DNA of 64,000 nucleotides from a virus. This document shows positions 28,109 to 53,296 of this stretch, in pieces (position 1 is the stretch's first letter; every line of letters begins with the position of its first letter). A program made the translations under genes and the position numbers. The notes under the pieces were generated by a model. The model had not been told where the DNA came from, ran no database searches, and saw nothing but the letters and a program-made list of their open reading frames with translations. The DNA is taken from positions 1 to 64,000 of IMG/VR virus record IMGVR_UViG_3300027396_000021. One strand, 5' to 3'.

Positions 28109-28123
28109 TTAGGTTAAAAAAAT

Positions 28124-29938: not shown

Positions 29939-29956
29939 TCAATCGGAGCGATATAA

Positions 29957-32365: not shown

Positions 32366-32376
32366 GAAGTTTAACT

Positions 32377-32384
32377 AATAAATA
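32377..32384 (+). promoter_or_regulatory. Late-promoter-like element before fibre paralogue 4
   Basis: AATAAATA in the 45-base gap between two fibre genes ends 26 bases before the ATG at 32411. The motif and spacing match the other late-promoter-like sites in this window. Confidence 0.45.
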
Positions 32385-32410
32385 TATAAACATTTTGGGA
32401 CTATTAAACT

Positions 32411-34220: not shown

Positions 34221-35126
34221 ATGACTACAAACGGATCAGATATCTTATCTTCTGATTATAATTCTATCAGAGCCAAAGCAGTATCGTTGTTAGGCACAGG
34301 TTCAGGGCAACGTGGATATAATCAGACGATTCAATCGTCCGATGTGTTTGCAGGTAATCAAATCACTAAAGCCCAATGGGACGCATTGCGTTATGATATT
34401 GTTAATATTAAGTACCATCAGGATGGTGCTGTTCCTAACATAGTAACTATTAACTCCGGTGATTTAATTGGATACGGAGCATCTTATCCTAATAACAATT
34501 ATGACACAATAATTAATTCTGCAGTAGAAAATAAGTTTAATATTTCTCCAAGTACTTCCACAGTAACAACAAAAATAGGCCAAACAACAACATCGACTTG
34601 GTCTTCATCAGCCACAGTAACAGTTACAGTAACATTCTCCTCATCTGACGAAGCAAGATATTTCTTCAACAGTGGAGGAAAAATTAGAGTATCGTCGGCT
34701 TTTTCCGGAAATACATCAACATTACAAAATGGAGCCTGGGCTTATTTGTTATTAACTGTAGGTACAGTATCGTTTGGAGCAAATACTCATCCAACATTAA
34801 ATTATTACACTATGACTAATTCCTACCAAACGGTTTTTAGTCAAGCTCAAAGTACACCGTATTCTGCAAATAATTACAGCATAGAAGTTAAAACAGACGT
34901 AGCTGATAATTCAGAAGGTACTGCAAAAATATTATATTTTAAAATAACATTAAATGACGGATATACCGATCCAAGTCCAGGAAATCCACCTCCTCCGGGC
35001 GATTCTGTTAGCGGGACACTTTCGGTTGCTATTTCAGAATTAAAGGCTTCGGGAACACTATTACCAACCGGAAATTGGACAATAACTAGTCCTACATATT
35101 CAATTTCTAGTTATTCAGTTTATTAA
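34221..35126 (+). CDS. Structural protein of unknown role (tandem paralogue A)
   Basis: The 301-residue protein shares layout and motifs with the next gene: an N-terminal block (ILSSDYNSIRAKAVSLLGTG, WDALRYDIVNIKYHQDG), a centre with EARYFFNSGGKIRVSSAF, and a C-terminal proline segment (DPSPGNPPPPGD) followed by a short beta repeat. It begins one base after the preceding fibre stop. The predominance of beta structure and the late position suggest a virion or fibre-associated protein. I do not recognise a characterised family. Confidence 0.6.
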   Translation: MTTNGSDILSSDYNSIRAKAVSLLGTGSGQRGYNQTIQSSDVFAGNQITKAQWDALRYDIVNIKYHQDGAVPNIVTINSGDLIGYGASYPNNNYDTIINSAVENKFNISPSTSTVTTKIGQTTTSTWSSSATVTVTVTFSSSDEARYFFNSGGKIRVSSAFSGNTSTLQNGAWAYLLLTVGTVSFGANTHPTLNYYTMTNSYQTVFSQAQSTPYSANNYSIEVKTDVADNSEGTAKILYFKITLNDGYTDPSPGNPPPPGDSVSGTLSVAISELKASGTLLPTGNWTITSPTYSISSYSVY

Positions 35127-35142
35127 ATAATTAAATAACGAC

Positions 35143-36063
35143 ATGGCTGTTAATGATCTAATTAAAGTTGCGGATTACAATTCTATTCGTGCAAAAGTGG
35201 CTCAGGTATTTGGGACCGGCTCAGTAACCTACGGTTACGGACAAACATTACTAAGCAGCGATGTTTCAGTAAGCAGCAAAGTTACAATTAATGAATGGGC
35301 AAATTTAAAATATGATATAATAAATGCTTATGTACATCAAAACGGAACACTTCCTACTATTTTAACAGTAAACGAGGGAGGTACTGTACGTTACAGTACA
35401 ACAGATGCTCCAGTTACAACGTATGATACTCTTGCCACATCTATAGAAACTAATAGATTTTCAGTAGGAGCTGGTTTATCATTAGTTACCAGTACGGTGT
35501 CAACTTCTAGAAACGGATCCTGGAGCAATTCTGCAAAGGCAACTGTGCAATTTTATTGGGCCAATGCTACTCAAGCAAGACATTTTTTTAACAGTGGCGG
35601 AAAAATTCGAGTATCTGCTTCTTTAGGAACAGACGGTACTGCATCTGCACAAAATCAAAAGTGGAGAGAATTACTAGCAGCAGTTGGTTCTAGAGATTTT
35701 GGCGGATCGACATCTACAACTCCGGCAAACGGAGCAAGTTGGTACCAGTGTAATAATTCATTCCAAACATATTATAGTGCCAATGCTTCAAGTCCATACG
35801 GAAGCAATTCTATTCAATTAAAATCTAGAGTTGTTGATCAACCTTTGAATGTAAACGGACTTGCTGCGTCTGGCGAAATCGAAATAAATTTAGTTGACGC
35901 ATACTCCGATCCAGGTTTTCCTCCACCAGGGGACTTAGTTGACGGAACAGTAACAATGAATGTTAGTGTAGTTTATCCAACCGGAATCCTTTACCCTTTA
36001 GGAACAGGCAATTTTACTGTTACAAATCCAACGTTTAGTATTGGATCAATCACGTTCTCTTAA
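35143..36063 (+). CDS. Structural protein of unknown role (tandem paralogue B)
   Basis: The 306-residue protein is a diverged duplicate of the preceding one: NDLIKVADYNSIRAKVAQVF, LKYDIINAYVHQNGTLPTIL, ARHFFNSGGKIRVSASLG, DAYSDPGFPPPGDLVDGTVT. It ends the structural block; a 58-base gap with a promoter-like element and a palindrome follows. Conservation between the copies is highest in the N-terminal 60 residues and the FFNSGGKIRVS block. Function unknown. Confidence 0.6.
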   Translation: MAVNDLIKVADYNSIRAKVAQVFGTGSVTYGYGQTLLSSDVSVSSKVTINEWANLKYDIINAYVHQNGTLPTILTVNEGGTVRYSTTDAPVTTYDTLATSIETNRFSVGAGLSLVTSTVSTSRNGSWSNSAKATVQFYWANATQARHFFNSGGKIRVSASLGTDGTASAQNQKWRELLAAVGSRDFGGSTSTTPANGASWYQCNNSFQTYYSANASSPYGSNSIQLKSRVVDQPLNVNGLAASGEIEINLVDAYSDPGFPPPGDLVDGTVTMNVSVVYPTGILYPLGTGNFTVTNPTFSIGSITFS

Positions 36064-36088: not shown

Positions 36089-36096
36089 CATAAATA
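36089..36096 (+). promoter_or_regulatory. Late-promoter-like element heading the GT/radical SAM cluster
   Basis: CATAAATA, one base from the T4 late consensus, ends 25 bases before the ATG at 36122. Its last four bases overlap a perfect 20-base palindrome. It is the only promoter-like site noticed before a run of overlapping genes reaching 48749. Confidence 0.5.
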
Positions 36097-36112
36097 ATGT
36101 GCGCACATTATT
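36093..36112 (+). promoter_or_regulatory. Perfect 20-base palindrome over the predicted transcription start
   Basis: AATAATGTGCGCACATTATT reads identically on both strands, with no spacer. It spans from the end of the -10-like element across the expected start point and is followed directly by GGAG (36113-36116), the ribosome-binding site of the next gene. As DNA it could be an operator; as RNA only the downstream half would be transcribed if the promoter is used as predicted. No second copy was noticed. Confidence 0.5.
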
Positions 36113-36121
36113 GGAGATTGT

Positions 36122-36469
36122 ATGGACGACCTTTTGAAAAAATCGTTAGACTTTTCTAACTACCAACAAACTTTTTCAATTCAACGTAAAATCCTTAAAG
36201 AAAAAATTGAAGCCAAATTAACATACGGTGTTAATGGTGGAATATTTTATATTGATCAAACACTTCTAACTTTTGTTGAGATGCTTTGCAATAAAGGAAG
36301 GACAGATAGCATTATTCTAGATAAAAATAACACACCGATTTTAATCGAAAGTTTAGAAGATTTTAAAAATGAAATTTTTAATAGATATTTTGAATCGTCA
36401 AATGAATATTATACGGCCTATCAAAATTTAAAGAAAAGCCGATCTGTTGAAAAATTATTAGAACAATGA
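36122..36469 (+). CDS. Conserved phage protein of unknown function
   Basis: The 115-residue, mostly helical, charged protein contains FSIQRKILKEKIEAKLTYG, GGIFYIDQTLLTFVEML, and ends KKSRSVEKLLEQ. From memory, proteins of this kind occur near the fibre genes of T4-like marine phages, but I know no assigned function. GGAG five bases before the ATG is a good ribosome-binding site. Its stop overlaps the following glycosyltransferase start (ATGA), so it is the first gene of that cluster. Confidence 0.62.
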   Translation: MDDLLKKSLDFSNYQQTFSIQRKILKEKIEAKLTYGVNGGIFYIDQTLLTFVEMLCNKGRTDSIILDKNNTPILIESLEDFKNEIFNRYFESSNEYYTAYQNLKKSRSVEKLLEQ

Positions 36470-37326
36470 ATACAGGTATTTTAATTTATGCTCACAATAA
36501 TCGAACTCTCGATTACGCATTAATGTCTTTAATATCTGGAGGCCTTGCTAAAAAAAATTTAAATGTTCCTGTATCTTTAGTAACTGATCCTTCGACTGTT
36601 GAGTGGATGAAAGAATCAAACATATTTGAAAAAGCAATGTCAGTATTTGAAAATTTAATTATTATAGATAGACCGATTACAAACAATCAAAGAAAATTAC
36701 ACGACGGTGAGGAGTCTACAACTGTGCCGTTTATAAATTCTAATCGACATAGTGCCTGGGAATTAACACCTTACGATAGAACATTATTAATTGACAGTGA
36801 TTATTTAATTTTTTCAGATCATCTAAACAAGTACTGGAATGTTGATTGCGATGTTATGATAGGTGAATCTATTAACGACATTTATAGTAATGATAGATTA
36901 GGTTATTTAGATAAACATATATCTGATACTGGAATTAAAATGTATTGGGCAACCACTGTAATGTTTACTAAGAATGAAAATTCTAAACTATTTTTTGATA
37001 TGGTAGGTTTAATAAAAGAAAATTATGAATATTATTCAGACATTTTTGGATTTAATCCTACACAGTATAGAAATGATATTGCTTTCAGTATAGCAAAACA
37101 CATATTAGACGGATTTGAACAATCCTCAGTCAACTCGCTTCCGCCAGTGTTAACAACATTAGACAAAGATATTTTGTACAGCGTAGACAATGACAAATTA
37201 AAATTTTTAATAAATTACAATCTTGACAGTAATTATTTTCCTTCGTCTGTGAGCAATATAGATATTCATATTATGAATAAACAAAGTATTATTAGGCACA
37301 AAGATAAATTATTGGATTTAATATGA
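36466..37326 (+). CDS. Glycosyltransferase-like protein (GT-A fold, DxD motif)
   Basis: The 286-residue protein starts with a Rossmann-like strand and loop (GILIYAHNNRTLDYALMSL). D110-S-D112, within RTLLIDSDYLIF, is at the place of the DxD nucleotide-sugar and metal-binding motif of GT-A enzymes. The donor and acceptor are unknown. It overlaps both neighbours by four bases. The next gene is built alike (strand, then DVD near residue 90), so the two may be distant paralogues acting in sequence on one acceptor; that is inference. Confidence 0.6.
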   Translation: MNTGILIYAHNNRTLDYALMSLISGGLAKKNLNVPVSLVTDPSTVEWMKESNIFEKAMSVFENLIIIDRPITNNQRKLHDGEESTTVPFINSNRHSAWELTPYDRTLLIDSDYLIFSDHLNKYWNVDCDVMIGESINDIYSNDRLGYLDKHISDTGIKMYWATTVMFTKNENSKLFFDMVGLIKENYEYYSDIFGFNPTQYRNDIAFSIAKHILDGFEQSSVNSLPPVLTTLDKDILYSVDNDKLKFLINYNLDSNYFPSSVSNIDIHIMNKQSIIRHKDKLLDLI

Positions 37327-38162
37327 ATTTTGGATATTTGTTAATTGTTGCCGAAAACAAAACTGTAGATTATTTACAGTTGGCATATGCATTGGCACTT
37401 AGTATAAAAAACACACAAAAAGAAGGCTATGATAAAGTTGCCATAGTCATTGACGACAAATCTAAATTAGACAAATTAAAAAGCTCTTGGGTATTTGATC
37501 ACGTTATCGAATGGAGTCAAGAAACATTCTGGGATGGTAGAAGTTGGATGGATAAACTAACTCCATTTGACCATACGGTGTGTCTTGACGTCGATATGTT
37601 ATTTTTTAGAGATTACAGCCACTGGATTGATTATTTTGTTGAAAATTCTGAATTATATGTAGCTAATGACACGTATACATATCGTGGAGATTTAGTAACT
37701 AACGATTTTTATAGAAAAACTTTCACAAAAAATGATCTTCCAAATCTTTATTCTATGTGGACATTCTTTAAAAAAGATTCTAATTTAGCAGACGACTTTT
37801 TTAAGTTAGGTCGATATATAATTAAAAATCCAACTGAGTATTCTAATTTGTTTTTAACACAATATAAACCAAAGGTGTTAGGAACTGATGAAGCATTTGC
37901 CTTGTCTGCAAAAATTTTAGATATTGAGGCAGAAATAGCCTATAAATTAGAATTTCCTAAAATTGTACATATGAAGCCAATGATACAAAATTGGCCTTGG
38001 CCGTCTGACAAGTGGAGCAATCATATTGGATTTTATTTGAATAAAAAAGGAAATTTAAAATTAGGAAATTTTCAACAACATAATATTGTTCATTATGTTG
38101 AAAAAGATAAAATTACAGAAGAAATAGTTAGCATTTTAGAGGAAATAGTATGGAAGAAATAG
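37323..38162 (+). CDS. Glycosyltransferase-like protein (GT-A fold, DxD motif)
   Basis: The 279-residue protein opens FGYLLIVAENKTVDYLQLAY and carries D89-V-D91 in HTVCLDVDMLFFRD, the expected DxD position of a GT-A (GT8-like) transferase. Further on, VLGTDEAFALSAKI resembles the acceptor-side acidic motif of this fold, and HMKPMIQNWPWPSDKW follows near the C-terminus. It overlaps the previous gene by four bases and the next by 13. Specificity cannot be predicted. Confidence 0.62.
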   Translation: MNFGYLLIVAENKTVDYLQLAYALALSIKNTQKEGYDKVAIVIDDKSKLDKLKSSWVFDHVIEWSQETFWDGRSWMDKLTPFDHTVCLDVDMLFFRDYSHWIDYFVENSELYVANDTYTYRGDLVTNDFYRKTFTKNDLPNLYSMWTFFKKDSNLADDFFKLGRYIIKNPTEYSNLFLTQYKPKVLGTDEAFALSAKILDIEAEIAYKLEFPKIVHMKPMIQNWPWPSDKWSNHIGFYLNKKGNLKLGNFQQHNIVHYVEKDKITEEIVSILEEIVWKK

Positions 38163-38773
38163 TAATTGATGATTTTGATGTATGGTTAGCTAATTTTAAA
38201 ATTGCTGAAGTTAATTACGTTGCAGTCTTCGATCCTTTTTCCGGAAAAGTAATTTCCGTAGGGCCTGACACAGCATTTAAAGATGAAAAACATAAAGTAA
38301 ACATTGACACCTTAATTGCTGAATCTATTATTGATGGAAAATTGGGTATTGAAAAGTGTTTGGTTGATATTAACTCTAATGAATTTGAAATTTCTGAAAT
38401 TCGTACATTAACAAAGTTAGACGATATTTTACATAGAGTTGTTTCTTTAAAATATTCCGAAATAGAAAAACCAGATGTGTACATAACACACATAGCTGAT
38501 AGCGGTGTTTTAATTATAGAGTTATCTGAAGAATTTGGCGGAACAAAAAAGGTAAACCAAGAAGTTAAAAAACGAAATTTTGTTTGGGACGGAGATACTG
38601 AGATGAAATTTTACATCACCGAATATAACGATCCTAACTTGATTTTTGATACAATTTCTGTTAAAATTAATGAACTTATCGGAGATTCCAAGGTTATTAA
38701 CGATATAGATTATAGTACGTTTAGCGTTTATACAAGACGTCTGTTTAAAAATTATGTGATTGAATACAAATGA
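38150..38773 (+). CDS. Protein of unknown function in the glycosyltransferase cluster
   Basis: The 207-residue acidic protein has no motif I can name. It looks like two small alpha/beta parts: residues 1-125 (VNYVAVFDPFSGKVISVGPD) and 130-207 (FVWDGDTEMKFYITEYNDPN). GAGG stands seven bases before the ATG, inside the end of the preceding gene. Overlap on both sides (13 and four bases) shows it belongs to the cluster, perhaps as a non-catalytic partner or a structural protein. Confidence 0.5.
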   Translation: MEEIVIDDFDVWLANFKIAEVNYVAVFDPFSGKVISVGPDTAFKDEKHKVNIDTLIAESIIDGKLGIEKCLVDINSNEFEISEIRTLTKLDDILHRVVSLKYSEIEKPDVYITHIADSGVLIIELSEEFGGTKKVNQEVKKRNFVWDGDTEMKFYITEYNDPNLIFDTISVKINELIGDSKVINDIDYSTFSVYTRRLFKNYVIEYK

Positions 38774-39669
38774 AAACTATAGAATTTGATGTTATCTTTT
38801 TAAGTTACGACGAACCCAATGCAGATTTACACTACGCTGATCTTTGTACCAAAGTGCCTTGGGCAAAACGTGTACACGGTGTTAAAGGCAGTGATCACGC
38901 ACACAAAGCAGCAGCAGAACAAAGCGAAACTGATTGGTTTATTACTGTTGATGCAGATAATATTGTAGATCCTAGATTCTTTAATATTGATTTAGATATG
39001 AGCGATCCAAAGATACAGGTCTATGGATGGTGCGGCCGCAACGTTATCAATGGCCTGCGTTACGGTAATGGTGGATTAAAAATCTGGAAAAAAGATTTTG
39101 TTCTTAATATGAAGACACACGAGAACTCGGATAGTGATAGAGGACAAGTAGATTTTTGTTGGGAAGATGGTTATCGAAATTTTCCTTTAAGTTTTAGTGA
39201 TAGCATTATAACTGGAAGTCCGTTCCAGGCCTGGAGAGCAGGATTTCGTGAAGGCGTAAAAATGACTCTCCTTGACGGTGTCAAAGTACCTCCTATGGAA
39301 ATTAAACAACACATATGGTGGCACAATATTCATAGATTACGTATGTGGTCAACAGTTGGAGCTCACGAAGAACACGGTACTTATGCAGTATTAGGTGCTC
39401 GTATGGGAACCTGGATGACTAATTGTACAGATTGGAATTATGTTGACGTTAGAGATTTTGAAATCCTAAGAGAAATATATGAAACAAAAGTTAATCATAC
39501 CTTTGTAGAAGAAGATGCACAAGATTACGGAACTAAAATTAAACACGAATTAGGATTAGACTGGCCGTGGTTAGATGCACGTCAAAGCAAATATACATTA
39601 GATTTATACAATGAAACAATGAATCTAAACGATACATATTTTAAGATGCCGGTACCTGCAAATGTATGA
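38770..39669 (+). CDS. Glycosyltransferase-like protein (GT-A fold)
   Basis: The 299-residue protein begins FDVIFLSYDEPNADLHYADL followed by KRVHGVKGSDHAHKAAAEQ and WFITVDADNIVD, where D61-A-D63 is a clear DxD motif. A conserved NGLRYGNGGLKIWKKDFVLN follows, then several His/Trp-rich segments (MEIKQHIWWHNIHRLRMWST). The same arrangement forms the C-terminal domain of the next gene, so the two share ancestry. The sugar and acceptor are unknown. It overlaps the neighbouring genes by four and eight bases. Confidence 0.65.
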   Translation: MKTIEFDVIFLSYDEPNADLHYADLCTKVPWAKRVHGVKGSDHAHKAAAEQSETDWFITVDADNIVDPRFFNIDLDMSDPKIQVYGWCGRNVINGLRYGNGGLKIWKKDFVLNMKTHENSDSDRGQVDFCWEDGYRNFPLSFSDSIITGSPFQAWRAGFREGVKMTLLDGVKVPPMEIKQHIWWHNIHRLRMWSTVGAHEEHGTYAVLGARMGTWMTNCTDWNYVDVRDFEILREIYETKVNHTFVEEDAQDYGTKIKHELGLDWPWLDARQSKYTLDLYNETMNLNDTYFKMPVPANV

Positions 39670-41944
39670 TATTTTTTATGTTTCTAAAACTGAAGGAAAT
39701 GACGATACTTGGCTAAAAATAAAATCTAAGTATCCGTTATCTCAACGTTTGACAAACATAACAACATATGATCAGATTAAATCTAAATCTTTTACAAAAA
39801 TGTTCTGGGTTATCTGGGACGATATAGATTTAGTAGATACGTTTAATTTAACAGAGTACAAAGCCACTAAGTGGGACGATATGTATGTTCACGTTTTTAA
39901 AAACAGTGAACACTATGATGGTATATGTTTGTTTCCTAAATCAACTACAATTTCTCAAAGAGAATTTGATAATAGATTTTTTACAGACAAAAAAGAAATA
40001 GATATAGTTGCCAGTGTTCCGTTAGGATACGATAAATTTAATATTAATAATTACGATGATTATTTAAATGCTATTGAACATTCTAATACAGATATGTTTT
40101 GGGCAATTTGGCCTGACGTAAATGTCAAAAAAGATTTTAAATTTAATTATAAAGTTCCTAAGCATAATTCTAATATTGTCCATATTTTTAAAAATGGAGA
40201 ATTTTTTGACGGCATTTGCTTATTTCCAAAAAATGTAAAAGTTTCTAAGAGAGAATTTTATCATAGATTTTTTGCAGATAAAAAAGAAATAGATATTGTT
40301 GCAAGTACACCGAAAAAATATAGTGTATATTCTCCTAATACATTTGAAGAATATCAACAAATTAAAGATGATATGTTTTGGGTCGTATGGCCCGAGACTA
40401 AAATTATAAATGAATCGGTACTTGATTTATACTTTAGTCATCATAATACATATGATCGTAGAGAAAATCATATTTTTAAAAATTTATGTAATGATGTTGA
40501 GTCTTATATAAGCGGCATGGTTCTTTGCAGTAAGTATAAACAGATGTCCCCAACAGAGTTTGAAAGTCAATATGCCACTGATAAAAAAGAATATAATATT
40601 GTAGCAAGCAAATTTCAATATCCAGTATACAATATATCAACATACGATCAATATTTAGAAATTGTTAAAAACGAAAAACAAAAAATGTTTTGGTGCATAT
40701 GGCCTAACATTGAAATTTTAGATAATACTATTTTTGATTTATATTTTGATCCTAACGACGGCAAATATGATCACGATAGAGAAGAAAATCATATGTTTAA
40801 AAATTTATGCAATGATAAAGAATCCTATTTAAATGGTCTTGTTCTATGTTCAACATCTAAAATTATTTCTCAAAGAGAATTTAATAGACGATATTTAATT
40901 GATAAAAAAGAACACAATCGTGTTGTTAGCCGATATAGATATAATAGATATACGTTAACTACCTATGATGAATATCAACAAATTATAGAAAAAGAAACTC
41001 AACCTTTGTTTTGGGGAATATGGCCAGAAATTGATATAACTGACGAAACAGTTTTTGATTTATATTTTGATCCTAACGACGGCAAGTCCGATCACGATAG
41101 AAAAGAAAATCATATGTTCAAACATATGTTTAACGGTACAGAAATTTATATTAACGGGTTAGCATTATTTTCAAAGACAAAGGTTATAGGTCATCGAGAA
41201 TTTAAACATCGATTTTTAATAGAAAGAAAAGAACACGATCGTTTAGTTTCTAAGCATCGATTATATGACGTTGTTTTTATCAGTTACAACGAACCTAATG
41301 CAGATGAAAATTATAATAGATTGCTGGTCAAGTGTCCTCGAGCAAAAAGAGTCCACGGTGTTAAAGGAATACATCAAGCGCATATTAAGGCAGCTGAAAT
41401 GTGTAACACTGATATGATATGGATAGTTGATGGCGATGCAATCATTGAAGATAATTTTAATTTTGATCTAACTATGTCTAGTTATGACATAGATTGTGTT
41501 CACGTGTGGCGTAGTAGAAACCCAATAAACGATTTAGAATATGGTAACGGTGGTGTAAAATTATTACCAAGACTATTAACATTATCAATGGATGTAACAA
41601 CTCCGGATATGACAACTTCTATATCTAAAAAATTTAAAGCTATGGATGATGTATCGAACATTAATTCGTTTAATACAGATGAGTTTGCAACCTGGAGATC
41701 AGCATTTAGAGAATGTTGTAAATTATCAAGTCGTGTAATTGAACGTCAATATGAAGATGAAACACAACAAAGATTAGATGCTTGGTGTTCATTAGGAATT
41801 GATAAACAATATGGCAAGTATGCAATTGCAGGTGCTATTGCAGGACGTAAGTACGGAGAAGAAAATAAAAACAATCCCGATGCATTAAGAAAAATTAATG
41901 ACTTTGAATGGTTAAAGGAACAGTTTAGTGGAATACAACCGTAA
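39662..41944 (+). CDS. Five degenerate GT-like repeats fused to a glycosyltransferase-like domain
   Basis: The 760-residue protein consists of five tandem repeats of about 95-108 residues (starting near 34, 128, 225, 324 and 432) and a C-terminal domain (about 535-760) homologous to the preceding gene product. The C-terminal domain has FISYNEPNADENYNRLL, KRVHGVKG and IVDGDAII with D590-G-D592. Each repeat contains MFWxIWPxxxI, then HxFKN, GxxLCSKxxxISxREF and DKKExxxVAS. The MFWxIWP segment lines up with MIWIVDGDAII of the GT domain, so the repeats look like GT half-domains that lost DxD. They may bind glycans or serve as spacer and scaffold; this is inference. Confidence 0.68.
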   Translation: MYDIFYVSKTEGNDDTWLKIKSKYPLSQRLTNITTYDQIKSKSFTKMFWVIWDDIDLVDTFNLTEYKATKWDDMYVHVFKNSEHYDGICLFPKSTTISQREFDNRFFTDKKEIDIVASVPLGYDKFNINNYDDYLNAIEHSNTDMFWAIWPDVNVKKDFKFNYKVPKHNSNIVHIFKNGEFFDGICLFPKNVKVSKREFYHRFFADKKEIDIVASTPKKYSVYSPNTFEEYQQIKDDMFWVVWPETKIINESVLDLYFSHHNTYDRRENHIFKNLCNDVESYISGMVLCSKYKQMSPTEFESQYATDKKEYNIVASKFQYPVYNISTYDQYLEIVKNEKQKMFWCIWPNIEILDNTIFDLYFDPNDGKYDHDREENHMFKNLCNDKESYLNGLVLCSTSKIISQREFNRRYLIDKKEHNRVVSRYRYNRYTLTTYDEYQQIIEKETQPLFWGIWPEIDITDETVFDLYFDPNDGKSDHDRKENHMFKHMFNGTEIYINGLALFSKTKVIGHREFKHRFLIERKEHDRLVSKHRLYDVVFISYNEPNADENYNRLLVKCPRAKRVHGVKGIHQAHIKAAEMCNTDMIWIVDGDAIIEDNFNFDLTMSSYDIDCVHVWRSRNPINDLEYGNGGVKLLPRLLTLSMDVTTPDMTTSISKKFKAMDDVSNINSFNTDEFATWRSAFRECCKLSSRVIERQYEDETQQRLDAWCSLGIDKQYGKYAIAGAIAGRKYGEENKNNPDALRKINDFEWLKEQFSGIQP
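39761..41263 (+). repeat. Five tandem coding repeats of about 0.3 kb
   Basis: Within the 760-residue protein, units start near 39761, 40043, 40334, 40632 and 40955. Each encodes the order aromatic FWxIWP, HxFKN, GLxLCSK, ISxREF and DKKExxxVAS. Repeats 4 and 5 are the most alike (both contain FDLYFDPNDGK) and repeats 1 and 2 share GICLFPK, which suggests stepwise duplication. Confidence 0.75.
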
Positions 41945-43361
41945 TATAAAAGGCAACGAGTTGAAAGAAATAAATGGCAAGTATGAATCTAGATACTTTG
42001 CCGACGCTGACTACGTTCAAAAAAAACTTAATGAAGTAAGTCCTAGTTTTTGTTTGGCTAAATGGTATAATGTTAGTATACATATTCCTACAGGTAAGAC
42101 ACACAGTTGTTACCATCCTAGAGCACATCAAGTTCCATTAGAAGAAATACGTATTGATGTTAGTGCATTGCATAATACAAAGTATAAAAAAGAACAACGA
42201 AAGTTAATGTTAGAGGGAACTCGTCCTAACGAATGCGAATTTTGTTGGCAAATTGAAGATAGTGGAACACAGTTAAGTGATCGTGCTTACCGTAGCAAGG
42301 ATGTGTGGGAAGATGGTTTAATTGATGAAGCACAGTTAATAGGCTACTTGGGTAATTCTAATCCAAGATATGTCGAAGTTAATTTTAACCAAGCCTGTAA
42401 TTTTAAATGTAGTTATTGCAGTCCTCATCTATCTACTGCCTGGCATAAAGACGTTCAAGCAAATGGAGCATTTATTTTAAAGGATAGATGGCACAATGAT
42501 ATCAATTGGATGAAAAGTCTTAATATTGATAATGGTCCTGATAATCCCTATTTGTTAGCATTCTGGGAATGGTTGCCTCAAATATACCCAACACTACATA
42601 CTTTCCGTATGACTGGCGGCGAGCCGCTAATGGACAAGAACACATTTCGTATGTTTGATTACGTTAAAGAACATCCTAAAAAAGATTTACATTTAAGTAT
42701 AACTAGTAATTGTTGTCCACCTGGCGATCAGTGGAAAAAGTTTATGACAAGTCTTAAAGAAATTACTGATGCAAACGCCATTGATCATTTTATGTTATAT
42801 TGTTCTTTAGATTCTTGGGGAGAACAAGCAGAATATATTCGCAACGGGATGGATTTTAATTTACTGTATAACAACGTATGTGATTATTTGCAAAATAGTG
42901 AAAAACATAGTTTAACATTTATTATTACTTTTAATGTGTTAAGTTATACAGGATTTTATAACTACATTGAAAATATTCTTAAATTGAGAAAACAATTTAA
43001 TAAAGGTCGTCAATTAATTTGGTTTGATGTTCCTCAATTAATGGATCCTGATTTTTTAAATCCTAAATTAATGCCTGAACTAGTTTCTGAATTAGAGCGA
43101 ACAATTGACTTTATGAAATACAATCCGGAAACACGTTGGAATGAATTTAAAGGATTTAGTGATTTTGAAATCAGTAAAGTTCAACGATTAGTTGATTGGA
43201 TTAAATCGAATACAGGATTTAATACAGAGACAGCTAAAGAAAATTTTTATTTATTTTTTAGCCAGCACGACGAGCGAAGAGGTACAAATTTTTTAAATAC
43301 ATTTCCAGAACTAACTAATTTTTGGAAACAATGCGAGGCAATATGCAAGAAAGTAGAGTGA
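41928..43361 (+). CDS. Radical SAM protein with N-terminal twitch-like cysteine region (1 of 4)
   Basis: The 477-residue protein has the radical SAM cluster motif C157-x3-C161-x2-C164 (ACNFKCSYCSPH) and a downstream TGGEPL SAM-binding motif. Upstream are cysteines C42, C61 (HSCYHPRAH), C103 and C106 (ECEFCW), like the N-terminal twitch region of a phage-linked radical SAM group, which may hold an auxiliary Fe-S cluster. The substrate is unknown; SPASM/twitch enzymes often modify peptides or cofactors. The start is GTG, with AAGGA eight bases upstream inside the previous gene; a TTG near 41960 with AAAGG is an alternative. Confidence 0.82.
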   Translation: MEYNRNIKGNELKEINGKYESRYFADADYVQKKLNEVSPSFCLAKWYNVSIHIPTGKTHSCYHPRAHQVPLEEIRIDVSALHNTKYKKEQRKLMLEGTRPNECEFCWQIEDSGTQLSDRAYRSKDVWEDGLIDEAQLIGYLGNSNPRYVEVNFNQACNFKCSYCSPHLSTAWHKDVQANGAFILKDRWHNDINWMKSLNIDNGPDNPYLLAFWEWLPQIYPTLHTFRMTGGEPLMDKNTFRMFDYVKEHPKKDLHLSITSNCCPPGDQWKKFMTSLKEITDANAIDHFMLYCSLDSWGEQAEYIRNGMDFNLLYNNVCDYLQNSEKHSLTFIITFNVLSYTGFYNYIENILKLRKQFNKGRQLIWFDVPQLMDPDFLNPKLMPELVSELERTIDFMKYNPETRWNEFKGFSDFEISKVQRLVDWIKSNTGFNTETAKENFYLFFSQHDERRGTNFLNTFPELTNFWKQCEAICKKVE

Positions 43362-44704
43362 CATTTATTAAAAATGTTCGAGATAGATTAAACAAAGTAG
43401 GTGAAGGGTTTTGTGCAATGAAATGGTTGCACCAAACTTTATATCTGCACACAGGCGATAACCATAGTTGTTATCATCCACGTCCACACCATATACCATT
43501 AGATGAAATAGCAATTGATCCTAGTGCATTACATAATACAAAATGGAAAATGCAACAAAGAAAAACAATGTTAGAAGGTGGAAGACCGGAAGAATGTTAC
43601 TATTGTTGGAACATAGAGGATCTACCAGGCGAACATATTAGTGATCGAATGATACATAGCTCTAGTGATTTTTCAGAACCATTGATAGAATCGTTAGCAG
43701 AATTGCCGTGGGATGCTCCTATCAATCCGCGGTATCTAGAGGTCAGCTTTGGTAACGGTTGTAACTATCGTTGCGGATATTGCTGTCCACAAGCTAGTAC
43801 AATGTGGATGGAAGAAATTAAAAAACACGGCAATTACGACCTAACATATAATCAATACGGAATTGAATTTTTAGAACACGGAACATACTATGGACCTAAA
43901 GATGAAAATCCCTACATTGAAGCATTTTGGAAATGGTGGCCTAGTTTACGTAAAGACCTTCATACACTTCGTATTACTGGCGGAGAACCGTTAATGAATC
44001 CAGGAGCAATGAAATTTTTTGATTTGCTAGAAGATGAACCAGCCCCCCATTTAGAAATTACTCTAAACAGTAATTTAGGAGTTACCTTTGATAGAGTTGA
44101 TAGATTAATTACTCGAGTTACTAGTTTAGTTAAACAAAAGAAAATTCGTAAATTTAGTTTTTTTACTAGTATTGATAGTTGGGGCGAACAAGCAGAATAT
44201 ATGCGCACAGGGTTAAAATGCGACCACTGGGAACGCAATATGATTGAAGTTATTAAAGCTGGTGCAACTGTTAATTTAATGTGTACCTATAATGTTTTAT
44301 GTGTGACTAATTTTCAAAAGTTATTACATAAGGTAATTGAATGGCGTGAAAAGTTTGGATTTGAATCAGTATCCTTTGATACACCGTACCTAAAAGAACC
44401 TCCTCACTGGATGATTAACATACTTCCAACAGAGTTTATTAAATATCAAGAAGAAACATTACAATTTATTTTAGATAATAAACAATGGTTCACAGATGTT
44501 GAGTATGAAAAAATGTTAAGGGTAACTGATTATATGAAAGAGAACCCAGTTAGTCCTGAAAAAATAAAACAAGGTCAGAGAGATTTTTATTCATTTTTTA
44601 CAGAAAACGATAAAAGATTAGGAACAAGTTTATTAAAAACATTTCCTGAATATACAGAATTCTACAATTACTGTAAAACAATTTATGACAACTATGATAA
44701 CTGA
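43343..44704 (+). CDS. Radical SAM protein with N-terminal twitch-like cysteine region (2 of 4)
   Basis: The 453-residue protein is a paralogue of the one before it: GFCAMKW, HSCYHPRPHHIPLDE, ECYYCWNIED, then the cluster motif C140-x3-C144-x2-C147 (GCNYRCGYCCP) and RITGGEPLMN. The shared SIDSWGEQAEYMR segment follows, then a C-terminal DFYSFFTENDKRLGTSLLKT that repeats FYLFFSQHDERRGTNFLNT of the first copy. ATGs at 43331 and 43343 are possible; GAGG at 43335-43338 favours 43343. It overlaps the previous gene by 19 bases. Confidence 0.82.
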   Translation: MQESRVTFIKNVRDRLNKVGEGFCAMKWLHQTLYLHTGDNHSCYHPRPHHIPLDEIAIDPSALHNTKWKMQQRKTMLEGGRPEECYYCWNIEDLPGEHISDRMIHSSSDFSEPLIESLAELPWDAPINPRYLEVSFGNGCNYRCGYCCPQASTMWMEEIKKHGNYDLTYNQYGIEFLEHGTYYGPKDENPYIEAFWKWWPSLRKDLHTLRITGGEPLMNPGAMKFFDLLEDEPAPHLEITLNSNLGVTFDRVDRLITRVTSLVKQKKIRKFSFFTSIDSWGEQAEYMRTGLKCDHWERNMIEVIKAGATVNLMCTYNVLCVTNFQKLLHKVIEWREKFGFESVSFDTPYLKEPPHWMINILPTEFIKYQEETLQFILDNKQWFTDVEYEKMLRVTDYMKENPVSPEKIKQGQRDFYSFFTENDKRLGTSLLKTFPEYTEFYNYCKTIYDNYDN

Positions 44705-45917
44705 AAAAAATAAAAACTCTTGGTGTGTAAATGCGTTTCACGCAATGAGTGCCAACAATGATGGCAGTACAAAAATGTGCTGTATGATTGTAGATTCTTA
44801 TCAAAATTTAATGTTTTTTCCTAATAAATTAATGATTGGTAAAACATCTATCCAAGAAAATTTTAACAATAAAATAGCTGAAAAAATTAGAAATAATCTA
44901 GATAAAGGCGTTCGCGATCCGGCTTGTAAATTTTGTTGGGAAGAAGAAGATGGCGGCAGAAAAAGCAAACGTCAACGAGATAATGATCGATACTTTCACG
45001 AAATAGAATGGCGCGATCGAACTCCCTATACTGGCCTGGCAAAATTTGAATTAAATCTAGGAAACACCTGTAACATTAAATGCAGAACGTGCCATCCTTC
45101 TATTAGTTCTTTATGGATGAAAGAAGCCTATGACTTAGATCATAGTAGCAAAATGTCTTATAAGGAATATAGCGAAGGGATGAAGAAATATCATCAACAA
45201 TACGATGAAGACAGTCCATTTTGGGATGACCTTGCTAATAATTTAGAAACAATAAAACAGTTTGATTTTTATGGCGGCGAACCGTTCCTGAGCAAGAAGA
45301 TGTGGGAAATATTACGTATTTGTGTCGACAAGGGTTATGCAAAAGATATAGAGTTGCATTATAATACAAATGGAACCACCTGGCCAAAAGAAACAGAATT
45401 ATGGCAGCATTTTAAATATATTAATCTAAGTTTTAGTATTGACGGAATTGGAGAACAATTCGAATATATGAGATTTCCAGCCAATTGGAATGAAGTTTGT
45501 ATTAATATGCAACAGGCAAGATCTTATAAAGATACATACAAAAATATGTCCATTAGTTGGTGTATTACCTTAAGTTCTATTAACATATTTTACCTTCCTA
45601 ACATTTTAAATGAATATTATAAATCTTACCCTGACCTAGGAGTTTATCTAAATTTAGTACACGGCCCAGAACATTTTAATATTGGTAAAATGCCAGACAA
45701 TGTTAAAGAAGAAGTAATATCTAGATTAGAAAAAATTCCAAAAGAATACGTAAGTGCGTGGTATCAAATTCCTGGAATCATTGGATTTATTAAAAACGGT
45801 AAATTTAAAGATGCTGTTTGGCAAACATTTATTTCAACAATAAAAAAACATGACCAGTACAGAAATCAAGAATTTTCAAAGGTATTTCCTGAGTATTCGA
45901 AAATAATAGGTATGTAA
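44685..45917 (+). CDS. Radical SAM protein with N-terminal twitch-like cysteine region (3 of 4)
   Basis: The 410-residue protein keeps the same plan in shorter form: WCVNAFHAM, KMCCM, ACKFCWEEED, then C129-x3-C133-x2-C136 (TCNIKCRTCHP), FYGGEPFLS and SIDGIGEQFEYMR. It is more distant from the first two copies than they are from each other. The start overlaps the previous gene by 20 bases; an ATG nine bases further in is possible, and neither has a strong ribosome-binding site, suggesting translational coupling. Function beyond radical SAM chemistry is unknown. Confidence 0.82.
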   Translation: MTTMITEKNKNSWCVNAFHAMSANNDGSTKMCCMIVDSYQNLMFFPNKLMIGKTSIQENFNNKIAEKIRNNLDKGVRDPACKFCWEEEDGGRKSKRQRDNDRYFHEIEWRDRTPYTGLAKFELNLGNTCNIKCRTCHPSISSLWMKEAYDLDHSSKMSYKEYSEGMKKYHQQYDEDSPFWDDLANNLETIKQFDFYGGEPFLSKKMWEILRICVDKGYAKDIELHYNTNGTTWPKETELWQHFKYINLSFSIDGIGEQFEYMRFPANWNEVCINMQQARSYKDTYKNMSISWCITLSSINIFYLPNILNEYYKSYPDLGVYLNLVHGPEHFNIGKMPDNVKEEVISRLEKIPKEYVSAWYQIPGIIGFIKNGKFKDAVWQTFISTIKKHDQYRNQEFSKVFPEYSKIIGM

Positions 45918-45918
45918 T

Positions 45919-47172
45919 ATGAACTTTTGGAATTTTAATGAACTAACTCAGATGCACATAGAATTGACTAATGCTTGCAATGCTGCTTGTCCTATGTGCG
46001 TAAGATTTTATAATAATAGTCCTTTGACACGGCCCGATCTAGAAATAGGTCAAATAACATTAGAACAATTTAAAAAATATTTTCCTCCTGAAATTATTCA
46101 ACGTTGTAGTTTAATATTATTTTGTGGTGTACACGGGGATCCTTGTGTTGCTAGAGATATGTACGAAATATGTGAATATATAGATTCTGTAAATCCTAAT
46201 ATTTCTGTTAGAGTCAACACAAATGGCGGAATGCGCAGATCTATCTGGTGGGAAAAATTAGGAAAATTATTTTCTAAACATCCTTGGAGCAGTTCAAATT
46301 ATTGGTCAGTTACATTTAGCATAGACGGTCTTGAAGATACTAATCACATTTATAGACGAAATGTTGATTGGAAAATTCTTATGGAAAATGCAGAATCGTT
46401 TATTAATGCTGGTGGTCCTGCTATATGGGATTTCCTTATTTTTAAACACAACGAACATCAGATAATTGAAGCAAAACGTTTTTCTGAAAAGATGGGTTTT
46501 AAAGAGTTTGTTCCTAAAAAAGCACTAGGCGTTGACAACGGAACAGAGCTAGTACATTTGGTAGCTCTTAATAAAGAAGGAGAACTTGATTATACTATAG
46601 AAGCTCCTGTTGATCCAAAAAATAGAAATTTAGAAAATCCAACAGGTGTATCTCCAATAAAATATTATCCTTTTAAAATAGATAACTATCGATCATTAAA
46701 AGAAACAAAATCTACCGGTAAAGATTTTCAAAATCAAGTGTTAACTGTTTACGAAGATAAAATTTTAAAAACTGATAATACAAAATATGACGGGTGCAAA
46801 ATTAATTGCAAATCAAAAGTTTGGACAAATGGAAAAAAAGAAATATTTGTTGATAATTTTGGTCGAGTAATGCCTTGTTGTTATATTGGTACTCGATTAA
46901 ATGGATTATATTCAGAAGCAGCAACATTGCAATTACATAAACATATGAATGATTACGGATGGGATAAGTTTGATCTAAATATTCATTCGTTAGAAGAAAT
47001 TTTATCAAGTGGACATTTAGATCGTGTATTTGCAGATAGTTGGTCTAAGGACACTATTAAAGATGGAAAATTACTTTATTGCTCTGAAACCTGTGGCGTT
47101 CATAGCAGTATTGATAGAATTTTTACTCACGAAATAATTAAAGAAAATCCAAGATGGGCAAAAACTGTATGA
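45919..47172 (+). CDS. Radical SAM protein with C-terminal SPASM-like cysteines (4 of 4)
   Basis: The 417-residue protein differs in layout from its three neighbours: the cluster motif is N-terminal, C20-x3-C24-x2-C27 (ACNAACPMC), and the accessory cysteines are C-terminal (CKINCKS, VMPCCYIG, LLYCSETCG), as in SPASM-domain enzymes that carry auxiliary Fe-S clusters. FCGVHGDPC replaces the GGEP motif, a variation seen in this branch. The substrate is unknown. It begins two bases after the previous stop, and its stop overlaps the next start (ATGA). Confidence 0.82.
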   Translation: MNFWNFNELTQMHIELTNACNAACPMCVRFYNNSPLTRPDLEIGQITLEQFKKYFPPEIIQRCSLILFCGVHGDPCVARDMYEICEYIDSVNPNISVRVNTNGGMRRSIWWEKLGKLFSKHPWSSSNYWSVTFSIDGLEDTNHIYRRNVDWKILMENAESFINAGGPAIWDFLIFKHNEHQIIEAKRFSEKMGFKEFVPKKALGVDNGTELVHLVALNKEGELDYTIEAPVDPKNRNLENPTGVSPIKYYPFKIDNYRSLKETKSTGKDFQNQVLTVYEDKILKTDNTKYDGCKINCKSKVWTNGKKEIFVDNFGRVMPCCYIGTRLNGLYSEAATLQLHKHMNDYGWDKFDLNIHSLEEILSSGHLDRVFADSWSKDTIKDGKLLYCSETCGVHSSIDRIFTHEIIKENPRWAKTV

Positions 47173-48749
47173 GTTTAGAAATATTATATTCTGGTCAAGT
47201 TAGGTTTGCAGAAGCTGCTAAACGTCAAGCAGAATGTTTTAAAGATGTAAATCACAATAATATTTTTAGCGTACTTGATTATCTGCAAGATTCGCATTCA
47301 TCTCTTTCATTAAAATCTACTCATATGATAGAGGAAGATAAAACTTTTGAATTTGCATTAGACCACTTAAAAAACAAATTAAAACCTACTGTTGTCGATG
47401 TCTACAATAGGAGTCATTTGGTAGAATGGTATAAGTCTGCATACAAGGTCAGTGAAGAAGATAATTACAAAGTTTTTTATATTCAGCATATATATTCTTT
47501 TATACAAGGATTAAAAAAAACTAAATCCGAAGTTGTAATATCAATTACAACTGATTTAATAGTTGAAGGTGATATTAATGCATTTTTAAAAAATGTAACT
47601 CAAGATAAACCAAAAGTTTGGGTACATAGACATTCAGATTTAATTACTCCTCACGTTATAGCTTTAAACAGGCCTGCAATAGATACTATATGCCAACGCG
47701 GAGATGAATTTTTAAATAATTTTTTTAATCTGTATTCTAACTCAGAATGGGAGAGATCGGAAAAAATATGGGAATTATTGTTTGAATTTTGTAATATTGA
47801 ATTTAATAGTTTGTCAAATATATATCAATGTAAAATAAGACCTCTTATGACAATTAATGATGTAGACAAATCAATAAATCAATTGTCGATGATGTTTAAA
47901 AATTGGAGACAATACAAAGATATAAGCACAAATAGATCAAATTTTAAATTTGAAAAATCTAAAGTAACGAGAATTGTTGCATATGGTTGTAGTTATACAG
48001 CCGGAGATGAATTTTTAGATTATCAATTAAATCCCGATGCAGAAAAAATTAAAAGAGAAAAAGGAATAGAAGCTTGGTTTAAAATAAAAGAATCTTATGA
48101 TCCTTTATTAAGAAAAAAACTAATAGAAAAACAAAAATTATTAGCTTGGCCTGCAATATTAGCAAATAAATTGCAGGTAGAATTATCTAATAGATCTGAA
48201 GGAGCAAATTCTCTTCCTAATATTTTGTATCAAATTGAACATGATATTTCAGAAGGTCTAATATCTGATACTGATTTAGTCTTTGTAGGATTGACTTCTA
48301 TTGAGCGTTCTATATATTTTGGCAAACAGAAATCAAAAGCGGTATTATTAAAAATGAAAGAGCAATTTCCTTTACACCTTCAAGATTATCAAGCGCCTAT
48401 AATAGAATTTAAAAATGCTATGTATATGTTTTATTTCTATTATCTATGTTGGTCTCGATTAATACAAATATCAGAAAAAAATTTAAACAACAAACTGTTA
48501 ATTGTTCCTTGCATAAACGACGGAGGTTATAAACATTTTAAAGCTTCTTTTGAAGAGTATTTCAAAAAAGATATTGCTAGAATGCAACAAGAATGTTTAT
48601 CACATCCTTCTTTTATTACAGATAAAAATCTCTATGATTTTGTAAATGATAAATCTACCGAAATTCACGGATGCGGACATCCTACTCAAATAGTACACAA
48701 TAGATTTGTTGAGAATATTTTAAAAGTTTTAAAAGATTCCGTTAGTTGA
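47169..48749 (+). CDS. Two-part protein: glycosyltransferase-like N-terminus and SGNH-hydrolase-like C-terminus
   Basis: The 526-residue protein has an N-terminal half (1-265) with SLEILYSGQVRFAEAA and VVISITTDLIVEGDINAF, reminiscent of glycosyltransferase-fold proteins but without a clear DxD. The C-terminal half (about 265-526) has SGNH landmarks: a GCSYTAGDEF nucleophile block, EGANSLPNIL, and a late GCGHPTQIVHNRF with a possible catalytic His. SGNH enzymes commonly add or remove acyl esters on sugars. The ATG at 47169 overlaps the previous stop (ATGA), preferred over an ATG 15 bases earlier. The gene ends the cluster and overlaps a minus-strand gene by 21 bases. Confidence 0.6.
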   Translation: MSLEILYSGQVRFAEAAKRQAECFKDVNHNNIFSVLDYLQDSHSSLSLKSTHMIEEDKTFEFALDHLKNKLKPTVVDVYNRSHLVEWYKSAYKVSEEDNYKVFYIQHIYSFIQGLKKTKSEVVISITTDLIVEGDINAFLKNVTQDKPKVWVHRHSDLITPHVIALNRPAIDTICQRGDEFLNNFFNLYSNSEWERSEKIWELLFEFCNIEFNSLSNIYQCKIRPLMTINDVDKSINQLSMMFKNWRQYKDISTNRSNFKFEKSKVTRIVAYGCSYTAGDEFLDYQLNPDAEKIKREKGIEAWFKIKESYDPLLRKKLIEKQKLLAWPAILANKLQVELSNRSEGANSLPNILYQIEHDISEGLISDTDLVFVGLTSIERSIYFGKQKSKAVLLKMKEQFPLHLQDYQAPIIEFKNAMYMFYFYYLCWSRLIQISEKNLNNKLLIVPCINDGGYKHFKASFEEYFKKDIARMQQECLSHPSFITDKNLYDFVNDKSTEIHGCGHPTQIVHNRFVENILKVLKDSVS

Positions 48750-49034
48750 ATCTTTGATATCTTTTTTTAATTTATCGATATCGACTTTAAAATCTATTTT
48801 TTTAATTTCTTCTTTATATTCTTGCAGCGTATTAATTAATGTGTCTGCAATTGATTCTGGAGTTTGTTTTACTAATTCTGTTTTAATGTCAATCTCCCAT
48901 ACTCTGCCATCGCTAAATTCTAGATGTATTAATTCTAGATAAGCGACTGGCATAGTATTCATATAGAGATCTTCAAAGACCTCTGGCCACTCTTTTATTA
49001 AGTGGCGTGGAGGCTTAAACAACGGATTAGGCAT
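48729..49034 (-). CDS. Conserved phage protein of unknown function
   Basis: The 101-residue acidic protein reads PNPLFKPPRHLIKEWPEVFE and HLEFSDGRVWEIDIKTEL, and ends with an amphipathic helical stretch. No function is known to me; I recall similar proteins in T4-like marine phages. Its 3' end overlaps the convergent plus-strand gene by 21 bases, and its start overlaps the preceding minus-strand gene by eight. Confidence 0.55.
   Translation of the reverse strand: MPNPLFKPPRHLIKEWPEVFEDLYMNTMPVAYLELIHLEFSDGRVWEIDIKTELVKQTPESIADTLINTLQEYKEEIKKIDFKVDIDKLKKDIKDSTNGIF
48732..48768. terminator. Hairpin at the convergent junction, possible terminator
   Basis: AAAGATTC (48732-48739) pairs perfectly with GAATCTTT (48748-48755) around an eight-base loop, and a run of seven T follows at 48762-48768 for plus-strand transcripts. 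The other strand has a shorter T-rich stretch after the stem. The stem is AT-rich and modest in strength. The site lies inside the overlapping ends of two convergent genes, where a terminator is expected. Confidence 0.5.
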
Positions 49035-53123: not shown

Positions 53124-53296
53124 TAATTTTTACCCCATTGCACCTTAAGCCAAATTCTTTCCATTATATAATGTACCGCTGTTAGAATAATATGAATAAG
53201 AACAGCATCGCTTAACCCTGTCCAAATTGCAGTAATCAATAACGCAATAATTCTATAACTTACTGTCCGTACTACTGTTCTTGTTTTGGTCTCCAT
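53123..53296 (-). CDS. Small membrane protein, DUF2061-like
   Basis: The 57-residue protein reads ETKTRTVVRTVSYRIIALLI, then a hydrophobic stretch, and ends HYIMERIWLKVQWGKN. The Arg-Ser-Tyr-Arg start followed by a membrane span and a HYxxERIW ending is the DUF2061 pattern. It is probably inserted in the host inner membrane; its role is unknown. The ATG at 53296 overlaps the queE stop (TGATG), preferred over an ATG 12 bases upstream. Confidence 0.65.
   Translation of the reverse strand: METKTRTVVRTVSYRIIALLITAIWTGLSDAVLIHIILTAVHYIMERIWLKVQWGKN

Follow-up and report, generated by a model that had tools for sequence, protein, structure and literature searches.

A compact operon of eleven genes, named g1 to g11, lies on the plus strand at positions 36122–48749 of the 64-kb viral sequence analysed here (the window), which is part of an 83.6-kb virus record of the IMG/VR database (IMGVR_UViG_3300027396_000021). 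The operon follows four fibre-type genes and two tandem genes, U1 and U2, for Ser/Thr-rich proteins. The order U, g1, g2, g3, g4, g5 and a radical-SAM gene hardly changes across 70 non-redundant viral loci, and a zone of variable cassettes comes after it. The products include four putative glycosyltransferases (GTs) and four radical-SAM proteins, and we tentatively propose that they form a soluble route by which fibre proteins of the virion, probably U, are glycosylated and further tailored. We rank this explanation first and give it somewhat less than an even chance. The features of the operon and its upstream region are as follows:

34221–35126, plus strand: U1, Ser/Thr-rich protein (27.6% Ser + Thr) behind the fibre genes, proposed acceptor
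35143–36063, plus strand: U2, tandem relative of U1 (23.5% Ser + Thr) directly before the operon, proposed acceptor
36090–36096, plus strand: ATAAATA, late-type promoter element, 32 nucleotides (nt) upstream of g1
36093–36112: perfect 20-bp palindrome between the promoter and g1
36122–36469, plus strand: g1, protein of 115 amino acids (aa), part of the syntenic core
36466–37326, plus strand: g2, GT8-like through a joint g2/g3 profile that matches glycogenin
37323–38162, plus strand: g3, GT8-like, 21% identical to g2, of which it is a distant paralogue
38150–38773, plus strand: g4, core protein (mean model confidence, pLDDT, 82.9)
38770–39669, plus strand: g5, GT-A-like, invariant DxD (D61 and D63 in A5), homologous to the C-terminal domain of g6
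39662–41944, plus strand: g6, N-terminal repeats (about five) that lack the DxD, followed by a GT-A-like domain
41928–43361, plus strand: g7, N-twitch radical-SAM protein (NF033640, 309.8 bits)
43322–44704, plus strand: g8, N-twitch radical-SAM protein, highly conserved (NF033640, 296.1 bits)
44685–45917, plus strand: g9, N-twitch radical-SAM protein, first of the variable zone (NF033640, 309.2 bits)
45919–47172, plus strand: g10, radical-SAM protein by Pfam, possibly of SPASM type
47154–48749, plus strand: g11, protein with an N-terminal part and, beginning near residue 265, an SGNH-like C-terminal portion

Gene order and transcription of the operon

As described in the initial annotation, the eleven genes are tightly packed behind a late-promoter-like element and run to a convergent end. 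Neighbouring genes overlap at nine of the ten junctions (from g1 to g11, overlaps of 4, 4, 13, 4, 8, 17, 40 and 20 nt, a gap of 1 nt and an overlap of 19 nt; the 40-nt overlap of g7 and g8 is reduced to 19 nt if g8 begins at the ATG of codon 8), and a minus-strand open reading frame (ORF) at 48729–49034 meets the g11 stop codon.

Relatives in viral sequences were collected with g8 (246 relatives, 80 loci retained), with a g4 alignment (476 relatives, 80 retained) and with g9 (nine loci). The 168 pooled loci, 167 of which contained a key gene, were reduced to 70 non-redundant loci by removal of near-copies, and a gene was counted as a partner when it was among the next two recognised genes and within 900 nt. 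Under this rule, the pairs U–g1, g1–g2, g2–g3, g3–g4 and g4–g5 were found in 42/44, 48/48, 54/54, 52/55 and 52/52 loci, respectively; a radical-SAM gene follows g5 within 4 kb in 41 of 41 loci, and U is located upstream of g5 in 39 of 40. Because g8 and g4 themselves served as bait, the remaining half of the module was also counted within each scan. The loci of the g4 scan alone have a radical-SAM gene within 5 kb (11/11) and U within 4 kb (17/17), and those of the g8 scan alone have g5 upstream in 25 of 29 cases. The initial annotation would have been refuted by a lack of co-occurrence of the genes in related phages; the core genes do co-occur, and g9–g11 fall into the variable zone.

Part of this synteny may reflect shared descent of one phage group. 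Against this, g1 shows only 29–63% identity to the window's g1 in 12 relatives, and pelagic phage-like contigs that were binned in marine metagenome-assembled genomes (MAGs) encode more distant proteins and keep the order fibre–U–g1–(g2)–g3–x–g5–radical SAM (loci L126, L128, L147, L154 and L157, and in part L153); no g2 was called in L147 and L153, and no g5 in L153. The ratio of nonsynonymous to synonymous substitution rates for g1–g8 ranged from 0.02 to 0.38 in nine chosen pairs where the synonymous rate was unsaturated, suggesting that these genes are under purifying selection.

The window contains seven copies of ATAAATA versus 42.5 (standard deviation 6.7) in shuffled sequences, an approximately six-fold depletion. 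Six copies are located 8–40 nt 5' of gene starts on the same strand, the seventh lies within g7 on the minus strand, and the operon interior has none on its own strand. The T4 octamer TATAAATA occurs once, as compared with 12.0 expected copies. Depletion of both motifs could represent a signature of late-promoter avoidance and could serve to map late units in such phages. Among the relatives, ATAAATA was present in 29 of 60 distinct 80-nt regions upstream of g1 and in 10 of 97 upstream of U; it was found in none of the 66, 69, 65, 68, 74, 47 and 71 regions preceding g2, g3, g4, g5, g6, g7 and g8, respectively. A copy of the shorter form, TAAATA, lies no more than 60 nt 5' of g1 in 41 distinct leaders; eight loci have none, and this 6-mer count is uncontrolled. 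The palindrome was considered as a conserved leader hairpin and rejected: a stem of at least 7 is present in just 14 of the 41 distinct leaders, and the comparison sets gave 9.5% (shuffled sequences) and 43 of 333 (other upstream regions).

Predicted functions of the encoded proteins

The claim of at least four GT-like proteins was borne out at the level of family and fold. A joint family profile of g2 and g3 matched glycogenin (best E 9.8e-7, covering only profile positions 13–106 of 272), and neither protein taken singly had a glycosyltransferase family in Pfam. Among 19 sequences, the candidate metal-site residues D112 and H268 are invariant and the first Asp of the DxD is sometimes Glu; D112 of the DxD together with the C-terminal H268 would form the putative GT8 metal site. 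The model of g6 (mean pLDDT 87.1, predicted template modelling score 0.51) has a predicted GT-A domain at approximately residues 532–676. The top Foldseek rows for g6 are the chondroitin polymerase K4CP, the S-glycosyltransferase SunS and RmlT, and the domain superimposes on B4GALNT1 (Z 11.5, root-mean-square deviation 2.6, 139 residues aligned) and ThuS (Z 10.7, 3.1, 138 residues); peptide glycosyltransferases of the SunS/ThuS and ppGalNAcT types match alongside polysaccharide enzymes. The g6 N-terminal repeats number from 0 to 7 (motif count in 72 distinct complete copies) and look like GT-A half-domains that lost the DxD. The g5 profile retrieved just two PDB chains, neither credible (E 0.1–0.22), and g5 appears GT-A-like through its homology with the C-terminal domain of g6. 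Accordingly named, g2, g3, g5 and g6 are putative glycosyltransferases.

The two remaining core proteins resemble no characterised family in these searches. For g1 there was no Pfam family over the cut-off, no PHROG and no credible PDB match. For g4 there was no PDB match at E ≤ 0.001 (best Z of a second look 5.0), and the viral library contained three matches at E ≤ 0.001, two of them from uncultured phages and one an unnamed protein.

As stated in the initial annotation, there are three N-twitch proteins: g7, g8 and g9 all exceed the curated cut-off of 170 bits of NF033640 (N_Twi_rSAM, twitch domain-containing radical SAM protein), a family that is here tied to one operon of GT-like genes. 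The CX3CX2C motif and four N-terminal cysteines are invariant both in g8 (C31, C50, C92, C95, C147, C151 and C154; 19 sequences with 73–90% identity) and in g7 (C42, C61, C103, C106, C157, C161 and C164; 17 sequences). The g8 profile gave MoaA at E 0.03, viperin at 0.2 and a DNA polymerase at 0.8. The fourth protein, g10, is a radical-SAM protein by Pfam (33.3 against a cut-off of 29.5) and fails NF033640 (42.1 versus 170 bits); its designation as SPASM-type stays below threshold (14.0 against 21.5, E 0.062). We know of no substrate for NF033640-type proteins. Auxiliary clusters had been taken to indicate peptide or cofactor substrates; they do not decide the substrate, and twitch/SPASM enzymes acting on sugars and aminocyclitols, such as BtrN, SpcY and DesII, exist.

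The fusion proposed for g11 was supported in its SGNH-like part and not in its GT-like part. The C-terminal part, in which SGNH motif residues are present, had no Pfam match; by hhalign it matched, in the block I region, SGNH-like proteins of the zone that were chosen by eye for their motif (probability 95.5%, E 1.5e-8), and relatives of about 280 aa match it from approximately residue 255–273 of g11. A GT-like N-terminal half was not supported: there was no credible Pfam match, and the DUF6492 protein L043:13812 was unmatched by blastp and gave a probability of 0.6% in hhalign. Fusions of about 590 aa in L062, L063, L075 and L076 have an N-terminal part that matches DUF6492 and a C-terminal part that matches the SGNH-like part of g11; thus, a GT-like/SGNH-like fusion occurs in relatives and is not supported for g11.

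The genes after g8 vary by phage and include extra radical-SAM proteins, SGNH-like proteins (by motif) and others, and other gene types occupy the places of g9 and g10 in other loci. Among ten representatives of this zone, four exceeded Pfam cut-offs (a carbamoyltransferase, a C-methyltransferase, a B12-binding radical-SAM protein and DUF6492), GDSL and methyltransferase matches remained under the cut-off, and four had no match. Parts of the operon are exchanged between phages, because L014 and L019 share identical g8–g10 and differ in g1–g5. A 5.5-kb contig in a Flavobacteriales MAG (L097), with a 74% g8 homologue and g9-, g10- and SGNH-like genes, is probably a misbinned phage piece.

A hydropathy scan found no membrane-like segment in g1–g11 (maximum 19-residue hydropathy 1.38), and none of the 77 distinct zone proteins of at least 120 aa, encoded between g8 and the convergent genes in loci with both ends in view, reached 1.9. 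Gtr seroconversion modules of temperate phages, which use membrane proteins, also alter a glycan; by the same scan, the operon has no hydrophobic segment of a Gtr-type membrane-bound GT or flippase.

The proposed acceptors U1 and U2, each of about 300 aa, have the highest Ser + Thr content among 31 listed proteins of the window, followed by the fibres. Matches to U2 occur in 11 records of Pseudomonas phages from the PA5oct group (28–30% identity over 69%). Pseudomonas phage Paride has a baseplate of the same type as the window phage. Its homologue of U, 29% identical over 69% of U2, ends its same-strand block and is directly followed by convergent genes.

Genomic neighbourhood and relatives in other genomes

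The baseplate wedge protein of the window phage is closest to those of Atu_ph07, SCTP-2 and PA5oct-type phages (61 records, all below 60% identity). Other features outside the operon are listed below:

1149–1994: late sigma factor, by PHROG match
25997–34219: four fibre-type genes preceding U1, U2 and the operon
53296–54156, minus strand: QueE-like radical-SAM gene (phrog_2076)
71001–71303 of the full record, minus strand: A-type Fe-S carrier gene (PF01521)

The A-type Fe-S carrier gene was found in four of seven other records searched, including G003, which is near-identical to the window. A QueE-like gene is located downstream of the operon in many relatives as well. Between the baseplate and fibre genes lies one ORF of 4618 aa (11458–25314), and Paride has a gene for a long virion structural protein at a comparable place. 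The 281.7-kb relative G001 has a second island (G001:C1:230000–258500; L244 and L245) with many radical-SAM genes and an epimerase, as well as short-chain dehydrogenase, SGNH-like and PP-loop ATPase-like genes identified by eye.

The INPHARED collection, from which near records may be left out, was searched by tblastn with the window's g1, g3–g6, g8 and g9 (g2, g7, g10 and g11 were not used). There was no match for g8 and g3 (E ≤ 1e-5), g5 and g6 (E ≤ 0.01), g1 (E ≤ 0.1) or g4 (E ≤ 1), nor for the g7-type and g5-type proteins of the pelagic locus L154 (E ≤ 0.01). By contrast with these, g9 matched 41 records, 39 of them Vibrio phages, with 21–23% identity among the 30 matches listed. Vibrio phage K566 encodes two proteins over the NF033640 cut-off, and neither K566 nor KVP40 has a g5 or GT8 relative.

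When the g8 alignment was used to scan genomes for just two conserved peptides, 67 loci were confirmed, 49 of them from Bdellovibrionota by record title (Bdello-, Bacteriovor-, Halobacteriovor-, Oligoflexia). Nearly all 67 are MAG contigs, six carry phage fibre–U genes, and some are possibly phage or prophage. Viral and bacterial rows are interleaved in a radical-SAM tree that was built by a quick method, with long-branch warnings, from 176 non-redundant rows out of 485 candidates; the label of viral rows changes 15 times, and starred branches force at least 11 of these changes. Two Bdellovibrionota MAGs encode 19 and 9 proteins over the NF033640 cut-off (33 and 25 matches in all). Arrays of N-twitch genes were seen at G014:C1:745500–775000 (L249 and L250) and G012:C9:77000–100000 (L251 and L252). 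In L252, from a Halobacteriovoraceae MAG, a g5 homologue (240.7 bits) and a g7-type radical-SAM gene (515.2 bits) are found within 8.5 kb, along with a methyltransferase-like gene.

The initial annotation knew of no described phage system with the full set of genes, which overlooks published pelagimyophages that combine GTs and radical-SAM cassettes beside tail fibres, as well as a published phage genome rich in radical-SAM genes that also encodes an Fe-S carrier. Virion glycosylation is known from mycobacteriophages. According to the accessible part of PMC7029224 (2020), the host-recognition region of pelagimyophages contains tail fibres and several glycosyltransferases, GT8 being the most represented GT family of those genomes, and two genomes differ in this region by added radical-SAM cassettes. 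The window shares with this cluster the tail fibres beside GT8-like and radical-SAM genes; a fixed module, the N-twitch type and an operon promoter are not described in that part of the paper, and the baseplate protein of the window phage is nearest to Atu_ph07/SCTP-2/PA5oct-type phages. The T4-like environmental genome TARA_ERS488813_N000010 resembles the window phage in its many radical-SAM genes (12) and A-type Fe-S carrier; in the accessible text of PMC5332604 (2017), these are treated as Fe-S metabolism, with no glycan or fibre operon described. Mycobacteriophages Che8 and Rita carry glycans on their own structural proteins, for which phage glycosyltransferases were proposed (cited via the available part of PMC11256854). 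There the glycosylated protein is the major capsid protein and not a fibre, and radical-SAM tailoring goes unmentioned in that text. In our searches of open-licence PMC papers, we found no account of the locked module, its radical-SAM type, its transcription unit or radical-SAM tailoring of virions.

Proposed decoration of virion proteins and competing explanations

Under the explanation favoured here, a single mRNA starting before g1 would encode the whole set late in infection. Two GT8-like (g2, g3) and two GT-A-like (g5, g6) enzymes would assemble a short glycan on a fibre protein rich in Ser and Thr, U1/U2 directly upstream being the most likely candidate, and the N-twitch pair g7–g8 would then alter the glycan or the protein beside it. 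The variable genes (g9, g10 and g11, and in some relatives SGNH-like, carbamoyl- and methyltransferase genes) may subsequently diversify the decoration, which would serve receptor binding or hiding from recognition; as a guess, g1 and g4 might be adaptors or chaperones. Four features place decoration of virion proteins first: U as a constant neighbour, the promoter element, the absence of membrane-like segments and the presence of glycan-type genes in the zone. The Ser/Thr content of U1 and U2, the fold matches of g6 to peptide glycosyltransferases and the A-type Fe-S carrier gene of the record count in its favour as well. The initial annotation had likewise suggested decoration of virion proteins or of a secreted or surface glycan, and the conserved GT-like/radical-SAM unit behind the fibres of many phages, with some glycan-type zone genes and no membrane-like segment, fits that suggestion.

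Several observations weigh against this explanation. The activity of the four GT-like proteins is predicted; like folds of the IspD-type nucleotidyltransferases (Z 10.7), and also MobA, match g6 nearly as well, because of which its assignment is limited to the fold, and its N-terminal repeats lack the DxD. The glycan, the product and the acceptor are all putative. U is proposed as the acceptor because of where it lies and how much Ser and Thr it contains, and fibres are in any case rich in these residues. U can occur without the operon, as in Paride, the record of which has no g5 or GT8 relative. There is no g5 upstream in L062, L067, L075 and L076 (the latter two retain a U-like gene and g6), and L063 and L082 resemble these loci. 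No PF01370 epimerase was found in the near-identical 134.8-kb record, for which reason the sugar supply may be the host's; four of the seven records searched do have one.

The late timing suggested in the initial annotation fits the window and may not hold in all relatives. In a divergent group, a sigma-70-type promoter (TTGACA/T-N15–19-TATAAT) precedes g1 in five of 62 distinct regions (L068, L078, L080, L083 and L085, with TTGACT in L080 and TTGACA in the other four); it was also found before g6 in 1 of 77 regions and before none of the remaining genes tested, with 21 such pairs on the plus strand across 2.39 Mb of partly overlapping loci. Since this promoter precedes g1, the enzymes of the divergent group may be made before virions, and the operon has apparently shifted to another expression class there. 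From the upstream-region counts of both promoter types, g1 mostly begins a transcription unit, the timing of which need not match across lineages.

Remodelling of host-envelope glycans, which ranks second and which we consider unlikely, would direct the enzymes to sugars or precursors of the host's surface polysaccharide and so block superinfection or re-adsorption to debris. Both carbamoyl- and methyltransferase genes, present in the zone, occur in O-antigen loci. Eight of ten scanned representatives of the N-twitch loci had a Pfam family (GT1, GT2, GT7, DegT aminotransferase, epimerase and dTDP-sugar isomerase, besides one radical SAM and one amine oxidase), an uncontrolled sample, many other loci being without such neighbours. 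The sigma-70-type promoter of the divergent group would also fit, and this explanation stays alive because in L252 strongly hydrophobic proteins lie between the g5-like GT and the g7-like radical SAM, an arrangement that suggests a glycan-related role for the pair and fits an envelope glycan. The GTs of pelagimyophages were interpreted as modifying the O-chain (PMC7029224). What speaks against it is the late-type promoter together with the fixed place behind fibre-like genes in most loci, as well as the hydropathy scan of g1–g11 and the 77 zone proteins, which gave no indication that a flippase, a polymerase or a lipid-phosphate transferase is encoded.

More doubtful still, and third in rank, is radical-SAM chemistry on fibre peptides, in which g7–g10 would cross-link, epimerise or methylate U or fibre peptides and the GT-like proteins would be secondary or use the same sites. 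Peptide maturation is the best-known role of SPASM/twitch enzymes, g9 has weak NCBIfam matches to peptide maturases, far under their cut-offs, and the fold of g6 matches the peptide S-glycosyltransferases SunS and ThuS; yet g7–g10 had no PqqD/RRE-type Pfam family at E ≤ 1, a search that divergent RREs can escape; this argument is weak, as the ORF list began at 60 aa and would miss short precursor genes. An island of unrelated hitch-hiking cargo pooled behind the fibres is highly improbable. The mosaic zone, with its L014/L019 exchange and varying g9/g10 places, would agree with it, and g9–g11 could still be cargo; for the core it was rejected through synteny, given that g1–g5 and the radical-SAM gene seldom separate and are under purifying selection. 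We attach least credence to modification of DNA or a small molecule (a hypermodified base or cofactor), which is hardly credible for an operon behind fibres under a late-type promoter element, even though phage DNA modification also employs carbamoyltransferases and GTs and a QueE-like gene lies nearby.

The operon links NF033640-type proteins to four glycosyltransferase-like genes and a structural-type gene, which makes the question of their substrate testable on one purified virion. With considerable doubt, we suggest that decoration of virion proteins here may represent a new class of virus-encoded post-translational modification, in which aquatic, largely uncultured phages would add a glycan to a dedicated fibre protein (U) and then rework this glycan with N-twitch enzymes; a fixed core with a swapped cassette would give combinatorial decorations, and the enzymes would have been repeatedly exchanged with predatory Bdellovibrionota, some of which have large arrays of them. 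If true, radical chemistry would vary fibre surfaces, with consequences for host range and for annotating the genomes of many aquatic phages, and the operon would be a source of soluble, mutually compatible glycan-tailoring enzymes.

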